From: Candidatus Omnitrophota bacterium | GTDB lineage: Bacteria; Omnitrophota; Gorgyraeia; JAFGGP01 | Assembly (NCBI GenBank): GCA_016930485.1 | Contig: JAFGGP010000003.1 | Location: 1 to 32,490 of the forward strand | Direction of reading: 5' to 3' | DNA: 32,490 nucleotides | Shown: piece after piece, positions 2,517-25,492 of the stretch | Numbering within the stretch: position 1 is the stretch's first letter | Layout: each line of letters opens with the position of its first letter | Program-made: the position numbers and the translations under genes | Notes under the pieces: generated by a model | Told to the model about the DNA's origin: nothing | Seen by the model: the letters and a program-made list of their open reading frames with translations, nothing else | Database searches by the model: none

Positions 2517-4370
2517 TTACGTCCGTTTTGCAAGCCAGCCGGCAATCTTTTTCTGATAGTCATCGATATCGGCCTCGCGGACTGTCTTTGGTTTAGCGGC
2601 AGGCGCCTGCTCGGAAGGTGCCGCCTCCTTAACCTGTGTTATAGGCTTTACCATCGCCTCCGGAGGGGCCGCCGGCTTGATCTCTACCCGCTCCTCAGTG
2701 ACCCTGCTCACCTCTTCCAGTGTTGTTGTCCCGCTCAACACCTTTTCCATCCCGTCTTCACGTAACAACTTCATATTAAGGTTTTTTCGGGCGTAGTCCC
2801 TGATCTCCAGAATCGAGGACCCTTGAATAACCATCTCGCGCACCTCGTCATCAAAGACAAGGAGTTCAAAAATACCCACCCTGCCCTTAAAGCCTGTACC
2901 CTTACAGTTCGAGCAGCCCGCCCCCTTGTATATCTGGAGAGGTTTATTTTCATCGACACCAAGCTTCTTTTTGACCGCCTTAGAGGGCTCATACGGCTCT
3001 TTACATGCCGAACAGATCTTTCGTAACAGGCGCTGGGCCATAATGGCGCTTACCGAGGCAGAAATAAGAAAGGGTTCAACCCCCATATTTTCCAGTCGTG
3101 TTATCGAACTGGCCGCATCGTTGGTGTGTAAGGTGCTGAATACCAGGTGGCCCGTTAACGCCGACTGAACAGCAATAATCGCGGTCTCAAGGTCGCGAAT
3201 TTCTCCAACCATGATAACGTCGGGGTCCTGACGGACAATGCTCCGCAGGCCGCTGGCAAAGGTAAGTCCTGCCTTCGGATTGATCTGCACCTGACGGATA
3301 AGACCTAATCGGTATTCGACCGGGTCCTCAACCGTAATGATATTTCTATCGATTGAATTAATCCTCGTCAAGGCAGAATAAAGTGTTGTTGTCTTGCCGC
3401 TGCCCGTAGGCCCTGTACTCAGGATAACGCCGTGCGGCCTTAAAATAACCTGTTCGTACAGTGTTAAATCATTCTTTGAAAACCCAAGTTTTTCCAGTCC
3501 GATTAATACGCTTGAGGTATCCAGAAGCCTCATAACAACGTTTTCTCCGTGAATGGTCGGGAGTGTTGAGACACGAAAATCGATGCGCTTGCCGTCGACC
3601 TGCATCTGAAAATGTCCGTCCTGAGGTATCCGGTTTTCGGCGATGTCCAGGTTGCATAACACCTTAACACGCGAAATAATGGCAAGCTCCAGATGTTTTG
3701 GCGGCGAGGGTATTTCATGTAAAATTCCATCTATTCTAAACCGCACCCTTAAAATATCTTCTTCCGGTTCGATGTGAATATCGCTCGCCCGGTCCCTGGC
3801 GGCCTGCGTGATAATCAGGTTTACCAGTTTGCTGATGGGCGATTCGCCCTCCATCGCCTCAAGGACATCCAGGGCCTCTGTTCCTGATTCAAGCGTAGCC
3901 TGGCCCATGCGCTTAATAAGCTCCTCGGCGGCGCTAGGACCTGACCCGTAAGAAGTCTCGATTGCCTTGTCGATATCTTCCCCGGCGCTTAAGCACGCCT
4001 CGATAATCCCGTCATGATAATGCGTGGAAAGATGATCCATGGCCGTCAGGTTTGTCGGGTCTTCCATGGCAACGACCAAAGCATCCTTGATTTTAAAGAG
4101 CGGGAAACATCTGAACCGCCGCGCAAGATCCCGGGGGACATGCTCGATGACCTTCGGATCCGGTATGTACGTTGAAAGATCGACGTAGATAGTACGCATA
4201 TCGTCGGCTACCACAGTATATAAATCATCCTTTATGACAAACCCCAGATCGACAAGTGCCTTTTCGAGAGGCCGTTTTTGCTTTTCTGCCTCTGCCTTTG
4301 CCTTCTCAAGCTGGGCCTGTTCGACTATATTTCTTTCAAGAAGCAGCTGTTCAAGACCTTCTAACGGCAT
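2517..4370 (-). CDS. gspE: GspE/PilB/MshE-family assembly ATPase
   Basis: This 617-aa hexameric ATPase powers pilin polymerisation. The N-terminal ~150 residues match an MshEN/T2SSE_N region (M-R-T-I-Y-V-D-L at 58-65). The catalytic core has Walker A G320-P-T-G-S-G-K-T327, an Asp box around 345-353, Walker B D-V-I-M-V-G-E-I-R-D (384-393) and a His box H408-L-V-F-S-T-L-H-T-N-D. The tetracysteine zinc motif is C453-x2-C456 and C486-x2-C489. Two oddities: the c-di-GMP motif RLG of MshEN is not preserved at the N terminus (P-L-E-G-L-E), and there is a Pro/Ala/Lys-rich C-terminal extension of about 60 residues after the core, ending in a charged helix. GAGGTG precedes the ATG at 4370. No PilT retraction ATPase is present in the window. 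Confidence 0.95.
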   Translation of the reverse strand: MPLEGLEQLLLERNIVEQAQLEKAKAEAEKQKRPLEKALVDLGFVIKDDLYTVVADDMRTIYVDLSTYIPDPKVIEHVPRDLARRFRCFPLFKIKDALVVAMEDPTNLTAMDHLSTHYHDGIIEACLSAGEDIDKAIETSYGSGPSAAEELIKRMGQATLESGTEALDVLEAMEGESPISKLVNLIITQAARDRASDIHIEPEEDILRVRFRIDGILHEIPSPPKHLELAIISRVKVLCNLDIAENRIPQDGHFQMQVDGKRIDFRVSTLPTIHGENVVMRLLDTSSVLIGLEKLGFSKNDLTLYEQVILRPHGVILSTGPTGSGKTTTLYSALTRINSIDRNIITVEDPVEYRLGLIRQVQINPKAGLTFASGLRSIVRQDPDVIMVGEIRDLETAIIAVQSALTGHLVFSTLHTNDAASSITRLENMGVEPFLISASVSAIMAQRLLRKICSACKEPYEPSKAVKKKLGVDENKPLQIYKGAGCSNCKGTGFKGRVGIFELLVFDDEVREMVIQGSSILEIRDYARKNLNMKLLREDGMEKVLSGTTTLEEVSRVTEERVEIKPAAPPEAMVKPITQVKEAAPSEQAPAAKPKTVREADIDDYQKKIAGWLAKRT

Positions 4371-14814: not shown

Positions 14815-16875
14815 CTACCGCTTAACAACCTTATACAGATGTGCCTTATCCATACCGTCAACAGGATAGAGCGCGATGCCGCTCTTAAACTGGACGGCCT
14901 CGGAAAAAGAAAACTTTTCTAAGGCCAAATCGACTATCTCCTGTAAAACGTCGGCAATAATACGCTCGCTTCCCTCTTTATCCGTCATCGCCAAAAGCAC
15001 CACCGACTGTTCATGTTCCAACTTGCCAATTACATCAACAACGCCTGTCTTTTCGAACTCCTCCTTAAGTTTTTGTTCTACGGCCTCAAGTAAACAGGGT
15101 GCTGTCCGGGCCGTTCTTTCGGCAAGGTAGTCAAGATTGATAACTCTTATCAAAATAAAAGAAAAAAAGGACTTGCGTTCCTTTGCCTTGGCAATCATCA
15201 ATTCAAGCTTGTCATCTAAAAAAAGCTCGTCGTGAAAAACGGGTAATTCAAAAATAAACGTATTACCTTTTTCCGAACTCGCTGCCCATATGCGCCCCTC
15301 ATGTTTTCGTATAATCTCCTTTGCGATAGGAAGCCCGAGGCCTGTCCCGCGCGCACCGGGGCCTGGTTTTCGGCCTACCTGATAAAACTTATCAAAAATC
15401 TTTGTCAGTTCTTCCTCCCGGATAGGCGTACCGTTATTAAAAATGCGGCATTCAACAGCATTGCCTTCCGTCGTCCGTACGGTAATCTGTATAACGCCTC
15501 CTTCAGGGGTAAACTTTACTGCGTTGCCGACCAGATTGGTCAAAACCTGTGATACCTTGTCGCTGTCGACATACACCGATGGCGTTTCTTGGCCTTGCTT
15601 AACGGTAAGAGCGATGCCCTTCTTTTCCGCCTGAAGCCGCATTCTCCCCACCGTCTCCTCTACCAGTGTTATAAGCCCCACCTTTTCCTTGTGAAAGGTA
15701 ATCTCTCCGGACTCAAGCTTGGAGAGATCTAACAAATCATCAATAATGACGTAGAGCCTCTCTGAATTTCTCTTGATGATTGCTATCAAATCCATCTGTT
15801 TTTCCGCAAGCGTCCCGAACGAGGGTTCGGTCAATAGGTCGATGCCTTCGCGAATGGATGTTAATGGCGTCCTGAGCTCATGGGAAACGGTCGAAATAAA
15901 CTCCGATTTAAGCTGGTCTAATTCCTTCATCTTTGCATATGTCTTCGTATTTTCAATCGCGAGTCCTGCGTGGTTCGCGATAATAGTCAGGATGTTAAAC
16001 TGATCTTCTTTAAATTTATCCGCCTCTGCAGCGCCGATGGCCAGGCTGCCGGTAATCAGGCTGCCGATCGGAAGGGGGACAATCAAAAATGAATTAATAG
16101 CGTCTCCGACCGCAACCCCCATCAACTCGCCCGTTTCTTCAATATCCTCAATTGCTCTATCGCGATCGATCCCCCGGGAGGTCATCCGTTCTGTTTCGCG
16201 AAAGACGCGTTCGCGAAAGATGTCATATAGCGGGTGTCCGTAGGGAACCGACCCCTTGATAAAAATTTGCACCTGCTCTTCGTCAAAAAGCGTAAAACTG
16301 CAAAAGTCGTAGCGTGTCACCTCTTTCAACCGGGCCATCACCAGCTTGACAAGACGTTCCTTATCGAGCATAAAAATCATGTTTTTTGTGATACTCAATA
16401 CCGTGCGCAGCTCCCTGGTCCTCTCCTCCACCTTTCGCTCAAGCGTTTTGTTGTAGTTTTCGATTTCGTCCCGGTACTCCTTGAGCGCCTTTGCCATCTC
16501 GTTGAAGGTCTTCTCGAGCACGCTGAATTCATCATAGGTCACCATATCAAGATTATAGGCGAGGTCTCCGGAAGCAATAGCCCGAGCCTTATCAACCAGC
16601 CGCTGAATAGGTTTCGTAATAAAATAGGTCACCGCCATGGCTACCATGAACGCAAAGGCAAGGCTGATGAAATACGACACAGTCATAAATTGCAGCGCTT
16701 TTTTTACCTGGATATATTCCTGAGGAGGTATCGTCGTTGCCTCAATCAGACTTTGGCAGAAAATAATCATCAGGAGTCCGGTAATCGTTACCAACATGGT
16801 AACAAAAGCCGGAATGGCTACTGACAGCTTAAATTGAAAATTTTTTTTGAATAGATACTTCAGCTTTTGTCGCAT
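14815..16875 (-). CDS. Membrane histidine kinase: 2 TM, HAMP, GAF, HisKA, HATPase, degenerate GGDEF
   Basis: This 686-aa sensor kinase has TM segments at 17-41 and 63-87 with a short loop of about 20 residues outside, a HAMP domain (about 88-140), a linker coiled coil and a GAF domain (about 165-312). HisKA carries the phospho-accepting H332 in F-I-S-T-V-S-H-E-L-R-T-P-L. The ATPase domain has N447 and N451 (N box), an N-N-G-T-P-I G1 box and G510-T-G-L-G-L515. The C-terminal ~120 residues look like a GGDEF domain (final strand G-I-A-L-Y-P-V-D-G), but the signature is G617-K-L-E-H-E-Q623, so cyclase activity is not expected. A c-di-GMP or GTP sensing or dimer role is possible. It lies just after two receivers. 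AGAGG precedes the ATG. Confidence 0.93.
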   Translation of the reverse strand: MRQKLKYLFKKNFQFKLSVAIPAFVTMLVTITGLLMIIFCQSLIEATTIPPQEYIQVKKALQFMTVSYFISLAFAFMVAMAVTYFITKPIQRLVDKARAIASGDLAYNLDMVTYDEFSVLEKTFNEMAKALKEYRDEIENYNKTLERKVEERTRELRTVLSITKNMIFMLDKERLVKLVMARLKEVTRYDFCSFTLFDEEQVQIFIKGSVPYGHPLYDIFRERVFRETERMTSRGIDRDRAIEDIEETGELMGVAVGDAINSFLIVPLPIGSLITGSLAIGAAEADKFKEDQFNILTIIANHAGLAIENTKTYAKMKELDQLKSEFISTVSHELRTPLTSIREGIDLLTEPSFGTLAEKQMDLIAIIKRNSERLYVIIDDLLDLSKLESGEITFHKEKVGLITLVEETVGRMRLQAEKKGIALTVKQGQETPSVYVDSDKVSQVLTNLVGNAVKFTPEGGVIQITVRTTEGNAVECRIFNNGTPIREEELTKIFDKFYQVGRKPGPGARGTGLGLPIAKEIIRKHEGRIWAASSEKGNTFIFELPVFHDELFLDDKLELMIAKAKERKSFFSFILIRVINLDYLAERTARTAPCLLEAVEQKLKEEFEKTGVVDVIGKLEHEQSVVLLAMTDKEGSERIIADVLQEIVDLALEKFSFSEAVQFKSGIALYPVDGMDKAHLYKVVKR

Positions 16876-22932: not shown

Positions 22933-23283
22933 TTAGTGTATATTTTTTGGTGACCCGCTGCCTATCTTGAGTACCTCTTCGAGGTACTCTTCCCGCATCT
23001 TCGCATGAAAGGCGACTTGCGCCATCTCGAATGTCTTGTGTTTTGCCCTTGCCTTTTCAAGTTCGTCGCGCACAATCCAATCAAAACCGCTGAAAATAAC
23101 AAAGGCACCTATCAGCACCAGACAAATGCAAACCCCCTGCCGGTAGGTAACGACAAAATCGTTAACGGTGTAGACACCTGTCGCCAGCCGCCTCCGTCGT
23201 TTACCCGCGTCTTCTGATACCAAGAGCACAATCAAGCCCGAGACAATAATGCCCGTCCCTGTCGCAAAAAGAAATGCACCCAT
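22933..23283 (-). CDS. Small two-TM protein, divergent member of the same family
   Basis: This 116-aa protein has TM segments at about 3-22 and 51-69, separated by a basic loop (G-K-R-R-R-R-L) and V40-N-D-F-V-V-T-Y-R48, a weak version of D-F-F-I-K-H-R at the same place relative to TM2. A charged helical tail of about 45 residues follows (E-L-E-K-A-R-A-K-H-K, then E-Y-L-E-E-V-L-K). The GGAGGTG site is strong. It lies directly after the GspG-like gene and 27 bp before its larger paralogue, so two family members are adjacent. Confidence 0.75.
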   Translation of the reverse strand: MGAFLFATGTGIIVSGLIVLLVSEDAGKRRRRLATGVYTVNDFVVTYRQGVCICLVLIGAFVIFSGFDWIVRDELEKARAKHKTFEMAQVAFHAKMREEYLEEVLKIGSGSPKNIH

Positions 23284-24186: not shown

Positions 24187-25158
24187 CTATTCAATCTCCC
24201 GCCACTCTTCCCACTCAAAGCCCTCTGCGATCTCGCCGACCAACCCACCGGCCCCGCCAACGGCCTCTGCGCAATAGAGGATATCGCCGTCGTCCAGATC
24301 AATGTCTACCTGCCGCGTCTCGACGAGTATGGCCCCAAGGACCTGAGCCCGAGCTTCAGGCTCGTCATCGTCACCCTCCTTGGCCGCATAGACATCCTTC
24401 GGCTCAAAACCAAAAAACGCCAGCGCCTTCTCTATAAAAGAAGGCTCTGTCCGCATCGACCCTGCACCCGGCTTTCCGACATTGATAAAGATCTTGTCGG
24501 ACTGGCCCTCTGTATCAGCGGCATAGACAATAATCACACCGTACCACTTGGCATTGTCATACAGCCGTAACTCCGCCATGCCGGCACCGTTATGGTCATC
24601 CTCGATAATCAAGAGCCCGTACCCGGTAAAATCGCCCTCAAGCTGCATCTTGATATTGTGCAGATAGACGATTTTGTAGTCGCTGGGGCTCCCGATGCTA
24701 TCGCTCGTCCCCCACTTCTGTAACCCGGGCTGATTTTCAAGGGTCATATCCGCCTGGGACTTATAGGCATTGACCATGGCCGCGACGTCGATACTCTCAC
24801 TGTTATACTGCTCATTCGGGACGCCCTCAAGCGTCATATCGGCATCGATGACAATATCGCCTTCGTTCGTATCGGTCGCCAGACCCGCCACATGACCGGA
24901 GCTGAGCTGCGCACCGCCCAGGTCGTGATTATAGCCACTTACCGTGTCTTCAGAGTTGCCGGTGATATTTACATCAAACGGCTCTGAATCACCCCTGTTG
25001 ATAACGGTAATCGCGGCCAAATCAGCAAACGTCCCTGACGATGTCTGGGCCTTTCCGGTAATCTGGATCTTCTTTGCCTCCTGCGCCTGGACAGGATCGG
25101 TTAATGCAACCAGCACAATAACACTAAGACAGAGAACAATTATAAGATTCCTTTTCAT
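24187..25158 (-). CDS. Secreted PilX-C-terminal-like protein under c-di-GMP riboswitch control
   Basis: This 323-aa protein has a classical Sec signal peptide (M-K-R-N-L-I-I-V-L-C-L..., cleaved near V-Q-A26) and no prepilin site. The mature protein resembles the C-terminal part of large PilX-like minor pilins: D-M-T-L-E-G, Y-L-H-N-I-K-M-Q-L-E-G-D-F-T-G-Y-G, then A-K-W-Y-G-V-I-I-V-Y-A and V-L-G-A-I-L-V. It ends E-W-E-E-W-R-E-I-E, like the E-W-R-E-L end of X1. A charged insert lies near 240-272. It could be a soluble or surface partner of the pilus tip, or an adhesin. GGAGGTG precedes the ATG. The only gene directly behind the riboswitch, it has its own promoter and terminators. Confidence 0.82.
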   Translation of the reverse strand: MKRNLIIVLCLSVIVLVALTDPVQAQEAKKIQITGKAQTSSGTFADLAAITVINRGDSEPFDVNITGNSEDTVSGYNHDLGGAQLSSGHVAGLATDTNEGDIVIDADMTLEGVPNEQYNSESIDVAAMVNAYKSQADMTLENQPGLQKWGTSDSIGSPSDYKIVYLHNIKMQLEGDFTGYGLLIIEDDHNGAGMAELRLYDNAKWYGVIIVYAADTEGQSDKIFINVGKPGAGSMRTEPSFIEKALAFFGFEPKDVYAAKEGDDDEPEARAQVLGAILVETRQVDIDLDDGDILYCAEAVGGAGGLVGEIAEGFEWEEWREIE

Positions 25159-25191
25159 AATGTCACCTCCCTCCGTTTTAAGAGTGTACTG

Positions 25192-25305
25192 TAAACCCCG
25201 TTAGACCCCGGTTTAAAGGCCGAGGTTTTCTTGTTTATTGCAACTCCGCAGTGCACCCATTTCCTCACCTTGAAAATCAGGGCTTTCTGAGTCTAACGGG
25301 GTAAA
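25192..25305. repeat. 106-bp element with 11-bp terminal inverted repeats and TAAA flanks (MITE-like)
   Basis: CCCCGTTAGAC (25196-25206) and its exact reverse complement (25291-25301) bound a 106-bp segment, flanked by TAAA at 25192-25195 and 25302-25305. This could be a small non-autonomous transposable element with a 4-bp target duplication. Because it lies in the transcribed leader it could also fold into an RNA stem enclosing further short hairpins, such as CCTCGG/CCGGGG. Confidence 0.55.
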
Positions 25306-25306
25306 T

Positions 25307-25336
25307 AAAAAACCCTACTCGTCTGAATAAGTAGGG
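25307..25336 (-). terminator. Intrinsic terminator of the riboswitch expression platform
   Basis: On the minus strand CCCTACT (25336-25330) pairs with AGTAGGG (25319-25313), followed by six T (25312-25307). It begins 12 nt after the aptamer P1 end. An alternative hairpin pairing 25338-25343 with 25326-25331 would use part of the same arm, so the two forms exclude each other, as expected for a transcription-control switch. Confidence 0.88.
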
Positions 25337-25348
25337 CCTTATTTCTGA

Positions 25349-25436
25349 CCTGGCAACCCAGCCGCCTTTCCCGGAGGTTGAAGGCCTGTGGTTTTGCGCC
25401 CCACCCTTTCAGATGGTTTGCCCTTTTCGAGCCAGA
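25349..25436 (-). promoter_or_regulatory. Class I cyclic-di-GMP riboswitch aptamer (GEMM-I)
   Basis: The minus strand has the GEMM-I core in order: P1 strand TCTGGC, then AGGGCAAACC, a 6-bp stem closed by a GAAA tetraloop (25401-25416), then GGCGCAAAACC, CAGGCCT, a second hairpin, and GGCTGGGTTGCC, closed by GCCAGG pairing with P1. By alignment from memory with the V. cholerae Vc2 aptamer, the middle G of GGG (position 20) is kept, which points to c-di-GMP rather than cGAMP. It is followed by a terminator and the secreted PilX-like gene. Confidence 0.92.
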
Positions 25437-25463
25437 CATATCTGTTTACACTACTATAGTTTA

Positions 25464-25492
25464 AGTATAGCATATAGTCTGGTTGCCGTCAA
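25464..25492 (-). promoter_or_regulatory. Sigma70-type promoter of the riboswitch transcript
   Basis: On the minus strand TTGACG (25492-25487) is followed after 17 bp by TATACT (25469-25464). The predicted start near 25457 lies about 20 nt before the aptamer P1 strand, as expected for a riboswitch leader. Confidence 0.85.

Follow-up and report, generated by a model that had tools for sequence, protein, structure and literature searches.

The sequences through which riboswitches switch lie mostly in the first helix of the aptamer (PMC10907184). In Cd1, the c-di-GMP-I riboswitch (RF01051) of Clostridioides difficile, the antiterminator takes the 3′ side of the aptamer at C87/G86, and mutating the P3-docking loop abolished ligand binding, so that P2 is needed for it (PMC9262584). 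In the pilM GEMM-Ib riboswitch of Geobacter metallireducens, an ON switch, the 3′ strand of the aptamer is used by the terminator and an A stands for G20, as cGAMP riboswitches have an A at position 20 (A14 in the Geobacter structure; PMC6274999). The ZMP (pfl) riboswitch has an expression platform that invades a helix other than P1, namely P3 (PMC10907184).

The window, by which we mean the whole stretch of DNA analyzed (32,490 nt), comes from a Candidatus Omnitrophota genome (G000; 1.9 Mb, 89% complete) that belongs to the same class as Omnitrophica WOR_2 bacterium GWF2_43_52. A cmscan search with Rfam found a single riboswitch in the whole window, at 25348–25431 on the minus strand. We propose, with a probability of about 0.7, that this element is a transcriptional c-di-GMP-I riboswitch that, in the folding model described below, would switch its gene OFF at high c-di-GMP. 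An earlier note on this DNA, made from its letters, had claimed a full GEMM-I unit, and the promoter, the aptamer and the 12-pair terminator with its six U were indeed all in place, with every landmark that it had named (Table 1). Promoters and terminators like those of the window were rarer in shuffled sequences (means of 0.4 and 0.5 per 441-nt region, respectively), and TATACT or CATACT boxes stand upstream of most other riboswitches in G000. The terminator stands alone as a hairpin, separated by 7 nt from the aptamer upstream and having no base in common with it, and the downstream gene starts 149 nt past the terminator's U-run.

Table 1 Features of the riboswitch unit and its gene in the window.
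Feature	Position	Strand	Remarks
Predicted sigma70-type promoter, TTGACG-N17-TATACT, TG extension (extended -10)	25464–25492	(-)	10/12 consensus matches
c-di-GMP-I (GEMM-I) aptamer	25348–25437	(-)	covariance match and folding
Aptamer helix P1	25436–25431/25354–25349	(-)	
Aptamer helix P2, GAAA loop	25416–25401	(-)	
Aptamer helix P3	25393–25355	(-)	
Predicted switching sequence, P2 loop and 3′ strand	25398–25413	(-)	UCUGAA.GGGUGGGGC
Predicted antiterminator partner, terminator 5′ arm and loop	25322–25337	(-)	GCCCUACUU.UUCAGA; complementary to the switching sequence
Intrinsic terminator	25307–25340	(-)	12 pairs (25340–25309), 8-nt loop, six U
Dispersed repeat, ~115 bp	25191–25305	(-)	long terminal inverted repeats TTTACCCCGTTAGAC / GTCTAACGGGGTTTA; fills the leader from terminator to gene
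Putative ribosome binding site	25166–25174	(-)	GGAGGGAGG; read from the sequence
Gene for a 323-aa secreted protein	24187–25158	(-)	Sec-type signal; short relative of a DUF7305-containing family

The covariance check that had been suggested with the c-di-GMP-I assignment bore it out, as RF01051 scored 66.8 bits on the aptamer against a curated cut-off of 35 (E 5e-13). The c-di-GMP-I-GGC model, RF03167, also scored over its curated cut-off (63.7 bits against 59, E 5e-13) and wins the Rfam clan competition, the best label resting on the E-value. Following that label, the aptamer would be a GGC variant with a different ligand, which we regard as very unlikely: beside the high RF01051 score, the conserved G of the RF03167 model (GACGCGAAg in its consensus), which would correspond to the middle G of 'GGC', is an A at pocket position 47 in the window aptamer and in all 14 units of G000, and the genome encodes canonical diguanylate cyclases. 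The pocket letters G20, A47 and C92 (in AGGGC, GCAAAACC and GGTTGCC) are of the c-di-GMP type, in a mapping that leans in part on what we take to be the Vc2 numbering. The pocket numbering was otherwise mapped via PMC6274999. Seven GGDEF domains were found in G000, five of them strong matches with a canonical GGEEF, and within this 89% complete genome all seven keep the Asp, so that none (0/7) has the Ser in its place by which Hypr enzymes are recognized (PMC6456294). A cGAMP (GEMM-Ib) riboswitch, for which the pilus-related gene context would be typical in Geobacter (PMC6456294), is highly improbable here, as the window aptamer has a G and not the cGAMP-type A at position 20 and no Hypr serine occurs among the GGDEF domains found. 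Because of the pocket letters and of canonical GGDEF enzymes without this serine, c-di-GMP is the likely ligand, and judged by its letters the aptamer is an ordinary, known c-di-GMP-I riboswitch.

The earlier note had further suggested that an alternative stem overlaps the terminator arm and makes the unit a transcription switch. This stem is present and stronger than suggested, and we have refined the idea to a P2-directed antiterminator, which would predict OFF. The P2 loop and 3′ strand (25413–25398) form 15 bp with the terminator 5′ half (25337–25322), which is an antisense copy of them, and this pairing and the aptamer-plus-terminator pairing are mutually exclusive. With the 3′ end of the nascent transcript at 25322–25318, the 15-bp duplex and not the aptamer was the minimum-energy fold, and in constrained ensembles at transcript lengths of 116–124 the antiterminator lay 5.4–7.4 kcal/mol below the aptamer state, all energies being nearest-neighbour estimates that leave out tertiary structure and ligand. 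In the full-length transcript, the aptamer-plus-terminator and antiterminator states were within about 2 kcal/mol of each other, a near balance that would make the outcome kinetic and not predictable from energy alone.

In the mechanism that we propose, RNA polymerase would transcribe the aptamer first. Binding of c-di-GMP would lock P2 into the pocket and the P2/P3 tetraloop contact, leaving the later terminator arms no partner but each other, so that transcription would stop at 25307 (OFF). In the ligand-free RNA, the terminator 5′ half would take the single-stranded GGC beside P2 as a toehold, invade P2 and pair with its 3′ strand and loop, upon which the terminator could not form and the secreted protein would be made (ON). 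Since P2 is needed for binding, the ligand should block this invasion and free the terminator.

To see how specific the pairing is, 105 aptamers of the class were collected with their flanks, and the 70 units with a standalone terminator entered a pairing test. The P2 3′ strands paired with their own terminator 5′ arms at a mean of -9.5 kcal/mol against -8.3 when permuted (0/5,000 permutations as good; 3/5,000 within genomes), and with the P2 loop and the terminator loop included the own mean was -12.1 kcal/mol against -10.1 ± 0.34 in permutations overall and -11.1 ± 0.28 within genomes (0/10,000 in both cases), numbers that are supportive and are not probabilities of function, because the P2 strands are related and phylogeny, unlike composition, is not preserved in the permutations. 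A pairing of -12 kcal/mol was reached by 37 units in 21 genomes. Among ten strand/arm combinations in the 70 units, that of the P2 3′ strand with the terminator 5′ arm was the strongest; weaker own-pair excesses were seen for the P1 5′ strand with the terminator 5′ arm and for the P2 5′ strand with the terminator 3′ arm. The P3 5′ strand and the aptamer 3′ strand, also considered as antiterminator partners of standalone terminators, were unsupported in this comparison. Terminators not associated with riboswitches (n = 261) had a mean of -8.8 kcal/mol, and only two of them match the strength with which the window terminator pairs with the window P2. The pairing was mostly absent in a small sample of named Omnitrophota genomes, so that it is no phylum-wide rule, and most of the c-di-GMP-I units sampled outside the class have no terminator, so that the platform is not comparable there.

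The likeness of the terminators to P2 might instead be a by-product, for example of terminators copied from P2 or of a shared base composition. P2 is indeed alike across units, the window terminator pairing with the P2 of others and in 1 of 69 cases better than with its own, and unrelated terminators too show some pairing with the P2 3′ strand. We nevertheless consider this explanation unlikely, because own pairs are stronger than pairs permuted within genomes (0/10,000) and because the complementarity extends into the terminator loop, where termination needs no conservation. It is also rather improbable that the ligand-bound aptamer prevents the terminator and so switches the gene ON, in the style of the cGAMP-responsive pilM riboswitch with the aptamer 3′ strand in the terminator. 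This architecture, described for pilM (PMC9262584), precedes the C9, C31 and C44 genes of G000, but the window terminator stands alone 7 nt downstream and has no base in common with the aptamer. OFF switching by invasion of P2 is the reading that we prefer for the window unit.

RF01051 matches were found in 54 of the 59 sampled genomes of the class, and G000 carries 14 c-di-GMP-I units. Their other targets are a PilX-like protein behind two tandem riboswitches (C45), a GspH/I/J-PilX-like operon (C35), giant secreted proteins (C6, C31, C9 and C42), a 570-aa secreted protein (C44), another secreted protein (C27), a response-regulator/CheW cluster (C54), an RlpA-like protein and a lipoprotein; the C32 unit lies at a contig end. 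In seven of the 14 units, the first terminator is of the anti-P2 design, with pairing energies of -18 to -22 kcal/mol, and among these seven are all four pilus-related units (that of the window, the C35 unit and the two of C45). In the units before the secreted or giant proteins of C9, C31 and C44, the aptamer 3′ strand doubles as the terminator 5′ arm, as in pilM, and by this analogy the three units are predicted to be ON switches. More broadly, we give even odds to the proposal that one Omnitrophota class evolved both a P2-invasion platform, with the terminator 5′ half antisense to P2, and a pilM-like ON platform for other targets, one signal repressing pilus-related genes and inducing giant surface proteins, with two extra P2 hairpins in some of the aptamers.

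Several further observations were made on these units. At C45:15051–15413, two complete riboswitch-terminator units, both anti-P2, stand in tandem before the PilX-like protein. In several relatives and in the C32 unit, the terminator 3′ region matches the P1 5′ strand (TTTATCGGC / GCCGATAAA), a candidate third design read from the sequence. Extra structure, mostly two tandem hairpins, was seen at one fixed site of P2, between GGGRC and GCAAAG, in 5 of the 14 G000 units (L011, L012, L013, L014 and L015) and elsewhere in the class at about a dozen loci in other families (L239, L241, L245, L249, L250, L258 and others). With RF01051, these aptamers score far lower than normal ones, and they seem to represent a structural variant that recurs. 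The small membrane protein that heads the C9 riboswitch operon (L081) resembled, by eye, the 116-aa protein at 22933–23283 of the window, with which it shares the pattern MG.LLF.TG..IIVSG.

The protein encoded downstream of the window riboswitch has the Sec-type signal that had been claimed for it (MKRNLIIVLCLSVIVLVALTDPVQA), while a prepilin N-terminus is absent and no pilin model matched. Its claimed resemblance to the C-terminal domain of PilX-like proteins is weak and was seen through its longer homologues. Pfam and NCBIfam searches of the 323-aa protein gave no match, its profile link to the PilX-like proteins of G000 was not significant (hhalign probability 4.6%), and single-sequence structure prediction gave a mean pLDDT of 37. 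Its homologues in five genomes of the class, however, are about 540–610 aa long and occur in tandem pairs or triplets, which adjoin pilin genes in one genome, and 10 of 12 family members match DUF7305 (PF23981), which we take to be the C-terminal part of PilX-like proteins. The 323-aa protein itself does not match DUF7305; it aligns to the longer family over its first 230 residues and at a WEEWRE-type C-terminus, the middle being missing. No riboswitch was found near the homologues in the five relatives. Overall, these alignments suggest a weak PilX resemblance, from which a role at the pilus tip might be surmised. The view that another part of the locus touches c-di-GMP held, as the window encodes a GspE/PilB-type ATPase (2517–4370) with an MshEN (c-di-GMP binding) domain (E 2.9e-13). 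The C-terminal end of a histidine kinase (14815–16875) looked by eye like a degenerate GGDEF (SGIALYPVDG), with no Pfam call.

The repeat that fills the leader has 20 full-length or partial matches in G000, at 70–94% identity apart from itself, and appears MITE-like. It folds better than shuffled sequences (z -2.8), and as it has no U-run on the minus strand it should not block read-through. Its core is also found as an inverted pair in a named Omnitrophica locus (L106). An integron attC site was considered for this repeat and dropped, the order of the core sites being inverted.

We came across no GEMM-I riboswitch described with a P2-directed antiterminator in the limited literature searched, which makes the novelty of this design provisional, and no paper joining Omnitrophota and riboswitches was found there. 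The aptamer and the class of genes (surface, pilus) are what one would expect of GEMM-I. If recurrent, a P2-directed antiterminator would link this aptamer to termination by a further route, and two platforms of opposite sense built on a single aptamer type within a genome, if true, would amount to a readable c-di-GMP programme in an uncultured phylum.

Compared with the known systems, the window unit is like Cd1 in aptamer fold and pocket letters, and both are transcriptional, each having a standalone terminator with which an antiterminator competes, the antiterminator and OFF being predictions for the window. However, while the Cd1 antiterminator takes the aptamer 3′ side, that of the window would take the P2 loop and 3′ strand. 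With pilM it has a pilus-related target and the overall aptamer in common, but it differs in the letter at position 20, in its terminator and in the predicted direction, a pilM-like terminator being found in three sister units of G000. It scores over the cut-off of c-di-GMP-I-GGC (RF03167) but is without the G of that model at A47. As in ZMP (pfl), a helix other than P1 would be invaded, P2 in place of P3, but invasion builds the terminator in ZMP (pfl) and would build the antiterminator in the window. The helix in which strands are predicted to exchange, P2 and not P1, would set the window unit apart from both of the GEMM switches that have been studied most closely.
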